DNA of 64,000 nucleotides from Bradyrhizobium sp. 149 (lineage in GTDB: Bacteria; Pseudomonadota; Alphaproteobacteria; Rhizobiales; Xanthobacteraceae). Within the stretch, counting starts at the first letter, position 1; each line of letters starts with the position of its first letter. The stretch lies in contig NZ_JADPKK010000019.1 in NCBI RefSeq assembly GCF_023073915.1, forward strand, positions 124,001 through 188,000, written 5' to 3'. Under the pieces are notes generated by a model. The model searched no databases and was not told the origin of the DNA. It saw nothing but the letters and a program-made list of their open reading frames with translations. The translations under genes and the position numbers were made by a program. Positions 7,399-10,516 of the stretch are shown here, one piece after another.

Positions 7399-7437
7399 GG
7401 CGTGTGGCGAACGGGTCATCCCCCTTCGCCACACGCC
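7399..7437 (-). terminator. Long hairpin between rpsM and rpsK
   Basis: Perfect 13-bp inverted repeat GGCGTGTGGCGAA / TTCGCCACACGCC around a 13-nt loop. No T-run follows on either strand. It is probably an mRNA structure that affects processing or stability inside the alpha operon. Confidence 0.5.
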
Positions 7438-7455
7438 GCGATTTGGATTCGAAAC

Positions 7456-7824
7456 TTACTTCTTCTTGCCGGCGATGGCCTTGGCCGGGCCCTTGCGCGT
7501 GCGCGCATTGGTGTGGGTCCGCTGGCCGCGCACCGGCAGGCCGCGACGATGGCGCAGGCCGCGATAGCAGCCGAGATCCATCAGACGCTTGATGTTGATG
7601 CCGACCTCACGACGCAGGTCGCCCTCGACGAGATAGTCGCGGTCGATCACTTCGCGGATCTGGAGCACTTCGGCGTCGCTGAGCTGATTGACGCGACGAT
7701 CCATCGGGATCTTGACCTTCTCCAGGATCTCACCGGCGATCTTCTGACCGATGCCATGGATGTACTGGAGCGCGATCAGCACGCGCTTGTTGGTGGGAAT
7801 GTTCACGCCGGCAATACGGGCCAC
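7456..7824 (-). CDS. rpsM: 30S ribosomal protein S13
   Basis: Small-subunit head protein that contacts P-site tRNA and bridges the subunits, 122 residues. [34 protein letters not shown] and the basic tail [20 protein letters not shown] are the family landmarks. The extreme C-terminus is lysine-rich. It is the first gene of the alpha segment; the 187-bp spacer after adk could carry an additional promoter. Confidence 0.98.
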
Positions 7825-8011
7825 GGCCTTCTCTCCTGTCGCCGATCCCTCGTCAGGAATCAGGCTTTAAGTGCTTGGTTTCTCGGGCAGGTGTTCACAA
7901 ACGCGAACACGACGCCCACCCCTGGTCTTCCTGGGGCCCGGCATCGTTTGAAACTATCCGACTTGGATGCTGGGCTTATTAGGGGATTCAGGGGGCTTTC
8001 GTCAACCGCTG
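7825..8011 (-). other. adk-rpsM spacer with an imperfect hairpin
   Basis: 187 bp without a gene. At 7885-7917, GGGC..GTGTTC pairs with GAACAC..GCCC around an 8-nt loop (6 + 4 bp with an internal loop). No convincing -35/-10 pair was identified, though position suggests a place for an internal promoter. Confidence 0.35.
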
Positions 8012-8908
8012 CTAGCGCTTAGCTCGCCTTTTCGTGACCTTTTTTGCGGCCTTTTTGGCACCCTTTTTGACAGCCTTCTTGGCGGTCTTTTTGGCTGCCT
8101 TCTTCTTCCCCGCTTTTTTGACGGTTTTCTTGATGGTTTTCTTGGCCGCCTTCTTGGCACCCGTCACGGCCTTCTTGGCCGCCTTCCTGGATTTGGCTGC
8201 CTTTTCGGCCGTCTTCGCCGGCTTTTTAGCCGATTTTTTGGCCGTCTTGGCCGGGGCCGCCTTGACCGCGCTCCGGGCGCGGGTCTTGCCATGAGTCTTG
8301 CCATGAGTCTTGGGCTCGACCGCCCCGAGCGCCAGGAGCTGGCGGTGGATGGCGCGGGTGACCTCGTCGATGGCCATCATGCCGTCGATGGTCGAGAGCT
8401 TCCGCCGCTCGGAATAATAGTGAATCAGCGGTTCCGTCTGGCTGCGGTAGCTGGCGAGTCGCTTGGTCAGGACCTCCGGAGTGTCATCGAGTCGGACCTC
8501 CTCCCCGCGCTCCCGCATCTGGGCGACGCGAGTTTCGACGCGGCTCAGGAGGGCGCTCTCGTTGACGCGGAGCTCGATCACGGCATCCAGCTTGAGGTGC
8601 TTGTGCTTGAGCAGTTCATCCAGCGCCTCGGCCTGCGGCACCGTGCGCGGAAAACCGTCGAGGATGAAACCGTTTCTGGCGTCCGGCTGATCGATCCGGT
8701 CGGAGATGATTCCGACCACGACATCGTCGGGCACGAGACCGCCGCTGGCCATGATCTCCTTGGCCTTGAGTCCGACCGGCGTTCCTGCCGCCACGGCGGC
8801 GCGCAACATCTCGCCGGTCGAGAGCTGGACGATACCATAGCGCTGCACCAGCAGCTGCGCCTGGGTCCCCTTGCCCGATCCCGGCGGTCCCAGAAGTATA
8901 ATTCTCAT
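8012..8908 (-). CDS. adk: Adenylate kinase with a lysine/alanine-rich, histone H1-like C-terminal tail
   Basis: Catalyses ATP + AMP = 2 ADP. Residues 1-195 form a complete short-LID adenylate kinase: P-loop GPPGSGKGT at 8-16, AMP-site segment [15 protein letters not shown] at 29-43, DGFPRT at 84-89, [15 protein letters not shown] at 113-127, and [14 protein letters not shown] at 141-154. The zinc-type LID cysteines are absent. Residues about 200-298 are a low-complexity basic tail built from KKAAKK/AKK units with almost no acidic residues. The start at 8908 ([10 protein letters not shown]) fixes the P-loop at the N-terminus; a longer frame adds 72 unrelated codons and is rejected. It follows secY, as in many spc operons. 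Confidence 0.95.
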
Positions 8909-9184
8909 CGGCGTACGCCCCCCGGATTGGTGAGCGATAGGTCGCGCACCTGTGTTCTGAAGTCCAATTACAGTGCAAATCATAATCGGCGCTGCACCGC
9001 TACCCATATCATAGGGGAGCAAATGGCCGGACGCCAAGGAGGCCTTTGAGATCAGTGATTGCGCTTGTGTGAGAGCGGCTCTGCCGATGCGACCGAATGG
9101 CCGGTTGGCCGTTCCTGCGGGCACCGCGCGTTGTCCGCGCGGCGAATCGGCGGCGCAGTCGCGCCGCCCGAGAGAACGCCGCGC
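8909..9184 (-). other. secY-adk spacer with a GC-rich hairpin
   Basis: 276 bp without a convincing gene. A perfect hairpin GGCGGCGC / GCGCCGCC with loop AGTC lies at 9149-9168, just past the secY stop. The rest shows no recognisable element. Confidence 0.4.
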
Positions 9185-10516
9185 TTAACGGCGGCGGCCG
9201 CGCAGCTTCGACTTCCGGATCAGGCCTTCGTACTGATGCGCAAGCAGATAGCCCTGCACCTGCGCCACGGTGTCCATGGTGACGCTGACGACGATCAGCA
9301 GCGACGTGCCGCCAAAGTAGAACGGCACCGACGCGTAGGAGATCAGGATTTCCGGGATCAAGCAGACGATCGCCAGATAGACCGCGCCGAGCACGGTGAT
9401 GCGCGACAGCACGTAGTCGATATATTCTGCGGTGCGCTCGCCTGGACGGATGCCCGGAATGAAGCCGCCGTGCTTCTTCAGATTGTCCGCGGTCTCGGTC
9501 GGATTGAACACGATCGCGGTGTAGAAGAACGCGAAGAACACGATCAGCGCCAGATACATGATCAGGAACAGCGGACGGCCGTGGCCGAGCTGGGTGTTGA
9601 TCCACTGGAACCATTCTGGCCCGCTGCCCGCGTTGAAGTTCGCAACCGTAGTCGGCAGCAGCAGCAGCGAGGACGCGAAGATCGGCGGGATCACGCCCGA
9701 GGTGTTGAGCTTGAGCGGCAGATGCGAGGACTGGCCTTCGAACATCTTGTTGCCGACCTGGCGCTTCGGATACTGGATCAAGAGCCGGCGCTGGGCGCGT
9801 TCCACAAACACGATGAATGCGATCACGGCCACCGCCATGATGATGACGACCAGGATCAGACCGGTCGACATGGCACCCTGACGACCGAGTTCGAGCATGT
9901 TGGCGAGCGCTGCGGGCAGCTCGGCGACGATGCCGGAGAGAATGATCAGGGAAATGCCGTTGCCGATGCCCCGCGAGGTGATCTGCTCGCCCAGCCACAT
10001 CAGGAACATAGTGCCGCCGGTCAGCGTGATCGCCGTGGACAGGCGGAAGAACATGCCGGGGTCGCTGACGACGTTGCCGGCGCCTTCGAGACCCACTGCG
10101 ATGCCGTAGGACTGGAACGCGGCCAGAATCACCGTGAGATAGCGGGTGTACTGGTTCAGCAGCTTGCGGCCGGACTCGCCTTCCTTCTTCAGCGCCTCGA
10201 GCTGGGGCGAGACGGTGGTCAGGAGCTGGATGATGATCGACGCCGAGATGTACGGCATGATGTTCAGCGCAAAGATCGCCATGCGGTGGATGCCGCCGCC
10301 GGCGAACATGTTGAACATGCCGAGGATGCCGCCCGCCTGGGAGCGGAACACCTGTTCCCAGATGTTGGGATCGATGCCGGGCAGCGGGATGTAGGTTCCG
10401 AGCCGATAAACGAGCAGCGCACCCAGGGTGAACCAGATGCGCTTCTTCAGTTCGTCGGCCTTGGCAAACGCGCCGAAATTGAGATTGGCTGCCAGTTGTT
10501 CCGCTGCAGAGGCCAT
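9185..10516 (-). CDS. secY: Preprotein translocase subunit SecY
   Basis: Central channel of the Sec translocon in the inner membrane, 443 residues, partner of SecE and SecG. The N-terminus is amphipathic (AEQLAANLNFGAFAKADELK), then RIWFTLGALLVYRLGTYIPLPGID begins the first transmembrane helix; ten hydrophobic helices can be traced. Conserved blocks include GIGNGISLIILSGIV and the cytoplasmic loop with FIPGIRPGERTAEYIDYVL, needed for SecA and ribosome contact. It lies between rplO and adk, the canonical spc operon position. Confidence 0.98.
   Translation of the reverse strand: MASAAEQLAANLNFGAFAKADELKKRIWFTLGALLVYRLGTYIPLPGIDPNIWEQVFRSQAGGILGMFNMFAGGGIHRMAIFALNIMPYISASIIIQLLTTVSPQLEALKKEGESGRKLLNQYTRYLTVILAAFQSYGIAVGLEGAGNVVSDPGMFFRLSTAITLTGGTMFLMWLGEQITSRGIGNGISLIILSGIVAELPAALANMLELGRQGAMSTGLILVVIIMAVAVIAFIVFVERAQRRLLIQYPKRQVGNKMFEGQSSHLPLKLNTSGVIPPIFASSLLLLPTTVANFNAGSGPEWFQWINTQLGHGRPLFLIMYLALIVFFAFFYTAIVFNPTETADNLKKHGGFIPGIRPGERTAEYIDYVLSRITVLGAVYLAIVCLIPEILISYASVPFYFGGTSLLIVVSVTMDTVAQVQGYLLAHQYEGLIRKSKLRGRRR

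Follow-up and report, generated by a model that had tools for sequence, protein, structure and literature searches.

Adenylate kinase is a soluble enzyme of core metabolism, and the adk gene of Bradyrhizobium sp. 149 raises the question of what about one hundred Lys- and Ala-rich residues do at its C-terminus. A first-pass annotation of the window (the whole stretch of 64,000 nucleotides that was analyzed) had proposed a complete adenylate kinase with a tail like those of histone H1-like proteins. This interpretation was partly supported: the sequence evidence points to a full adenylate kinase, and to an H1-like tail that has been kept and whose positive charge is under selection.

The adk gene and its enzyme core

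The adk gene is located at 8012-8908 on the minus strand and its open frame encodes 298 residues followed by a TAG stop. It is flanked upstream by secY (9185..10516, minus) and downstream by rpsM (ribosomal protein S13; 7456..7824, minus), which we take to be these genes from their translations and the gene order. The catalytic part (residues 1-195; 8324..8908, minus), with a short LID and a P-loop, was delimited by the Pfam ADK domain, alignments with relatives and AlphaFold2. The product scored 188.1 bits with PF00406 (ADK, Pfam; cut-off 26.8), 212.1 bits with TIGR01351 (NCBIfam; cut-off 168) and 481.8 bits with NF010381/PRK13808 (cut-off 426), the last aligning residues 1-294 with model positions 1-299. 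In an alignment of 23 sequences, G7-G10, G12-Q16, R36, D84, R88, R123, R127, D142 and R150 were invariant, Gly, Gln, Arg and Asp positions that we take to have catalytic roles. The predicted pI of residues 1-195 was 6.9, and pLDDT values were 84-95 across residues 1-200 (AlphaFold2, blocks of ten). Judged by its domain and conserved positions, the adk product is a complete and normal adenylate kinase, predicted to catalyse ATP + AMP = 2 ADP. The short-LID enzyme followed in frame by about 100 basic Lys/Ala residues was thus correctly recognized in the first-pass annotation.

Composition and predicted disorder of the tail

The tail comprises residues 196-298 and, with its stop codon (8012-8014), spans 8012..8323 on the minus strand, as delimited by translation, pLDDT and charge-conserving substitutions. 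An earlier span of 8012-8312 lies within it and lacked about four residues at the front. The 103 residues are in frame with the core and include 38 Lys, 27 Ala, 10 Thr, six Arg, three Pro and two Glu, with no Asp; the predicted pI is 12 and the predicted charge about +41. The repeat unit is four residues long with paired Lys, and the underlying DNA contains arrays with 12-nt and 24-nt periods. From residue 201 onwards pLDDT was 42-51 (AlphaFold2, blocks of ten) with neither helix nor strand assigned, and the stretches matched by solved structures stopped at residue 198 or earlier (60 of 89 matched sequences). The tail is therefore predicted to be disordered.

To count as a tail, an extension beyond the core had to be 40 or more residues long and to contain 20% or more Lys plus Arg. 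The 120 tails collected from the family (64 from Bradyrhizobium) were 54-229 residues long (median 99) and had median contents of 28% Lys, 9% Arg, 29% Ala and 1% Asp plus Glu. Their net charge ranged from +19 to +71 (median +37.5), and F, W, Y, C, M, L and I together made up 2%. Of these 120 tails, 93 had a stop in the +1 frame and 103 in the +2 frame. A frame error or sequencing artefact as the source of the tail was ruled out, the frame being open in all Bradyrhizobium relatives read. A known RNA element under the tail was likewise ruled out, as Rfam gave no match at the gathering threshold over 7400-9200.

Other Lys-rich proteins of the same genome were also recorded. In 464 kb (the window and a further 400 kb of its contig), four open frames of 60 residues or longer had 11 or more Lys and no more than two Asp/Glu within a stretch of 40 residues; the two strongest were adk and a free-standing H1-like Lys/Ala protein of 106 aa, encoded outside the window (G000:C16:75610-75927; L150:1441-1761). 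The latter has the same Lys/Ala repeat make-up as the tail and 56% identity to it over 59 residues, but it is a separate gene and the match was not significant (E 0.44). It had a match in six of 61 family genomes, its own included. When the tail was used as query against its own genome no significant match was obtained, composition correction probably hiding low-complexity matches. A 720-residue frame of the same genome (L241:11388-13550, minus) also has a Lys-rich C-terminal end.

Distribution of the tail

A search with the core found adk in 191 of 195 Bradyrhizobium genomes. All 64 Bradyrhizobium loci that were read, Bradyrhizobium sp. 149 among them, encoded the tail. These were Bradyrhizobium sp. 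Tv2a-2 (L153) plus 63 others, made up of the 30 best-scoring, two from the family draw and 31 chosen lower among the 191 matching genomes. Absence or a frameshift in close relatives would have spoken against the first-pass interpretation; the only such case among the 64 concerned the last six residues of one tail (L275), which are frameshifted and end AKKGHEKAS. Relative to its neighbours, the A-run in the conserved end block of L275 is longer by one A, this being either real or an assembly error.

Among 100 genomes drawn from the family, 98 had adk, with a tail in 58 and without one in 40. The tail was found throughout in 28 of 47 genera, in none of the genomes in 17 and in some in two, often with one to three genomes per genus. 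Second adk copies without a tail (L146 and L147, genomes G286 and G258) were left out of the family count, and L155, whose P-loop was not readable, was dropped before counting; L152 (Bradyrhizobium sp. CCBAU 43298) duplicates L006 and was left out of the tail statistics. Another tail-less copy, L165 of Bradyrhizobium sp. BR13661, had 59% identity to the query alignment's first row. The 26 adk genes read from other families, which were the best-scoring and not a random part of the order draw, all lacked a tail. A wide scan of named genomes gave 80 loci among the matches listed, of which 79 were readable; four were tailed (L151, L152, L153 and L198) and 75 tail-less. In a class-wide draw of 190 genomes, which was scored by the PRK13808 cut-off and not for other kinds of tail, only Bradyrhizobium sp. 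149, the one member of the family in that draw, passed.

In the phylogenetic tree of the cores (116 rows; many deep forks open), a tail-less group with Ancylobacter was separated from a large, mostly tailed group with scattered tail-less lineages. The trait required 12 gains or losses on this tree (9-12 over bootstrap trees), at least five of them forced by the starred branches. In genus g20 (L039, L050 and L055) the tail was lost and the frame stops after 206 residues with SGVPMSKFG(V/I)RRW. The tail is retained genus-wide and in a large part of the family and is no local accident. Because tail-less genes occur in 19 of 47 genera and 12 gains or losses were counted, it is dispensable in the long run.

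In 92 of 98 family loci, rpsM lay no more than 400 nt downstream of adk. The first-pass annotation had remarked that a link between energy charge and nucleoid or ribosome would be striking inside the ribosomal superoperon. The same adk-rpsM order is kept in 36 of the 40 tail-less loci, therefore the location is no evidence for such a link.

Length drift and selection on charge

Tail evolution was compared in 29 disjoint Bradyrhizobium pairs, leaving out pairs with core DNA distances below 0.5% or of 16% and more, and in 13 pairs from other genera, leaving out distances below 0.1% or above 25%. For tail rates and exchange counts the last 10 codons were set apart, and L275 was left out of the pair tests.

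Among the Bradyrhizobium pairs, 28 of 55 indels were of four or eight residues, which together with the 12-nt arrays shows that slippage sets much of the length. The dN/dS was 0.31 in the tail versus 0.058 in the core and synonymous divergence was twice as high (0.50 versus 0.245); repeat alignment in the tail is uncertain and may inflate both synonymous and non-synonymous rates. Single-base changes of tail Lys codons led to Arg in 44 cases, Thr in 11, Gln in nine, Asn in seven, Glu in two and Met in one. Lys-Arg and Lys-Glu are each one A/G transition, yet were found 44 and 2 times (p = 3e-11), and single-base Ala-Gly changes numbered 25 versus one Ala-Asp/Glu (p = 8e-7). The other genera displayed the same bias, with 17 Lys-Arg versus three Lys-Glu (p = 0.003) and 17 Ala-Gly versus no Ala-Asp/Glu (p = 2e-5). 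Acidic residues do arise when all codon differences are counted, for example five Lys-Glu and two Ala-Asp in the Bradyrhizobium pairs. Lys/Arg, Ala/Val and Ala/Thr swaps are tolerated in the tail, and substitutions that add negative charge are mostly removed.

The substitution bias indicates that selection acts on the charge of the protein. It marks a charge constraint and not its purpose, because the core of the same Bradyrhizobium pairs also lacked Lys-Glu changes among its 16 non-synonymous single-base Lys changes; a need for solubility, or harm done by acidic tails, would give the same bias. From these comparisons, the tail length stems largely from slippage of the 12-nt (four-residue) repeat, with selection keeping the charge. 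Slippage, named at the outset as the dull alternative, is thus a rival reading and also the source of much of the length change, charge selection acting on top of it.

The spacing of Lys/Arg was analyzed as well. In Bradyrhizobium the period peak was exactly 4.0 (z 50), which is the repeat itself. In 54 tails from outside Bradyrhizobium a broad period of 3.5-3.9 residues was obtained (z 6 to 10 versus shuffles), with weaker peaks at 3.3, 4.1, 4.8 and 5.1. A period of 3.5-3.9 residues would suit a helix formed on binding; the signal is suggestive only, because the tails are related and weaker peaks occur elsewhere.

The tail might be nothing else than a tolerated slippage product, a 12-nt repeat that expanded in the space separating the adk end from the rpsM promoter, from which selection only purges harmful (acidic, hydrophobic) residues, and which tethers nothing. 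The repeat arrays, the predominance of four- and eight-residue indels, the exact period of 4.0, the relaxed dN/dS and the many gains and losses over the family would all fit such an origin. We nevertheless consider it unlikely, though deserving serious weight, as charge persisted in tails whose divergence leaves no common repeats (aligned identity of 33-66% for 11 of the 13 other-genus pairs), the median of 28% Lys needs upkeep in genes whose cores have 65% G+C, and so many genera have the tail throughout.

A possible tether to polyanions

The explanation that we favour, with about as much doubt as confidence, is that the adk tail is a disordered polycationic tether to polyanions, namely nucleic acid and possibly polyphosphate (polyP). 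The C-terminus of the adenylate kinase continues as a disordered polycation, some 100 residues long with a charge near +40, and this would act in the manner of H1-type tails on other bacterial proteins. A disordered polycation on a soluble enzyme should bind polyanions, and selection on positive charge is what a polyanion tether requires. Binding would be without sequence specificity, most likely to DNA and RNA (nucleoid, polysomes) and possibly to polyP, and would keep part of the enzyme at sites of ATP use. Charge density would matter in such a tether, and exact sequence and length would matter little.

A narrower version, in which the tail brings Adk to polyP granules to interconvert the adenine nucleotides of polyP kinases (ADP, AMP and ATP), seems improbable to us. 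According to the accessible text of one report, AlgP, which has an H1-like tail, is associated with polyP granules, and the polyP kinases of R. eutropha found on granules are the basic ones, but the isoelectric point is an imperfect predictor of granule binding in P. aeruginosa (PMC9239181). Sequence moreover cannot tell polyP from nucleic acid as the partner.

If the polyanion tether holds, its wider consequence may be that adenylate kinase was made polyanion-anchored in this family. Nucleotides would be interconverted on the nucleoid, polysomes or polyP granules, and energy charge would be buffered locally. The bound fraction would shift with salt, Lys acetylation or polyP level, the tail length would be tuned by slippage and the tail would be lost repeatedly where it is not needed. 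We regard this whole scenario as rather unlikely. The adk tail, in a family that includes a genus of soybean symbionts, offers a natural test of energy metabolism anchored to polyanions: it can be removed without touching the active site, and the natural tail-less relatives can serve as controls.

A putative promoter at the end of the tail

The last codons of the tail coincide with a conserved DNA block, GCAAAAAAGGTCACGAAAAGGCGAGCT (8021..8047, minus), recognized by its column identity and few synonymous changes. It is located upstream of a conserved promoter-like pair ahead of rpsM (7976..8005, minus), TTGACG (8000-8005) and TAATAA (7976-7981) separated by 18 nt. The whole promoter-like stretch (7976-8047, minus) overlaps or abuts the adk end in most tailed family genes, in any reading phase. 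Over the 64 Bradyrhizobium loci, column identity per ten bases was 0.92-0.98 in the block versus 0.65-0.73 in the tail just upstream, and synonymous divergence fell from 0.50 in the other tail codons to 0.105 in the last 10. In Bradyrhizobium the final residues hardly vary (KVTKKRAKR in 40 of 64), and many family tails outside this genus end with RLTKRR or RRG. These endings are translations of a single type of DNA stretch, in which GGTTGACGAAA is preceded by an A-rich block (in the Bradyrhizobium neighbourhood) and followed by GAATCC and TAATAA.

GTTGAC was present no more than 40 nt from the stop in 56 of 58 tailed family genes versus 14 of 40 tail-less ones; in the tailed genes its phase relative to the stop was distributed as 44, 9 and 3 over the three frames. 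Within -60 to +300 of the stop it was found in 27 of the 40 tail-less genes. In all three g20 genomes (L039, L050 and L055), DNA resembling the tail end stands past the stop: a closely similar block, together with TTGACG and TAATAA, lies 80-155 nt beyond it. KVTKKRAKR or RLTKRR as a protein signal was ruled out by this coincidence with a DNA block that is present in tail-less g20, by the different phases and by the few synonymous changes. The conservation of the last ten or so tail residues is better explained by the overlapping promoter-like DNA than by a function of the tail itself.

As a candidate sigma-70-type promoter (TTGAC-like -35 and TATA-like -10 hexamers spaced by 16-18 nt), TTGACG-18-TAATAA is strongly conserved, but a consensus promoter scan did not report it and its -10 hexamer departs from TATAAT. 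The pair loosely fits the RpoD-like pattern of B. japonicum, TTG-N(16-18)-TATA, given in the accessible part of a transcription start site paper, the main text of which contains neither 'rpsM' nor 'adk' (PMC4842269). We read the end block as a putative promoter that overlaps the adk end and would drive rpsM together with the genes that follow. That the tail region as a whole is kept at the DNA level for this promoter, with the peptide as a by-product, would suit the last ten or so codons and the block beyond the stop in g20, but is very improbable, since the tail DNA upstream of the block displays high synonymous divergence and codon-level selection, the block alone needs no 300 nt of coding tail, and most tail-less genes lack GTTGAC near the stop. 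The adk gene suggests that a promoter inside a gene end can fix the last residues of a protein and so mimic a conserved protein motif.

Comparison with known systems

The long form of adk is already present in NCBIfam, where the PRK13808 model (335 positions) spans both core and tail and is named only adenylate kinase. A literature search, with subscription papers mostly outside its reach, found no discussion of such a tail on adenylate kinase; in the accessible text of PMC8263066, part of a fungal protein is reported to resemble the PRK13808 model weakly, and this text is not about the adk tail. What is new here is a known tail type on an unexpected enzyme, together with the evidence for charge selection, which we have not seen reported.

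The resemblance to H1-like proteins of the HctA/AlgP type, proposed in the first-pass annotation, was confirmed for composition and did not extend to a shared domain, all Pfam matches up to E 0.1 being of ADK or AAA kinase type and located in the core. The C-terminal domains of AlgP and PhaF from Pseudomonas are, like the adk tail, long, disordered, Lys/Ala-rich, very basic and built from short repeats. As described in the accessible text, Pseudomonas aeruginosa needs the Lys-rich tail of AlgP to space its polyP granules evenly, and an AlgP fragment is said to bind DNA; AlgP combines a helical N-terminal domain with KPAA repeats (PMC9239181). In adk the partner is an enzyme, and with three Pro in 103 residues the tail does not have KPAA-type repeats. 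The adk product may work like H1-like proteins by analogy but is not a member of their family, the comparison with HctA and AlgP being one of composition and not of sequence.

A second likeness was found with NF011492/PRK14900, a valine--tRNA ligase model of which positions 965-1042 of 1044 matched adk residues 188-296 (E 2.5e-6). The adk product is a different enzyme and not a member (25.6 bits versus a cut-off of 1783). The match is likely compositional, and perhaps points to another housekeeping enzyme with such a tail.

The accessible text of PMC6821194 says that histone-like proteins, topoisomerases and Ku contain Lys-rich low-complexity regions. It also mentions Lys-repeat tails of Streptomyces topoisomerase I and mycobacterial Ku. 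Like the adk tail, these are Lys-rich stretches on a folded protein. These two proteins already act on DNA, whereas adenylate kinase does not. Lys-rich tails are familiar from proteins with an existing role in nucleic-acid handling, and here a conserved one is found on a core metabolic enzyme.
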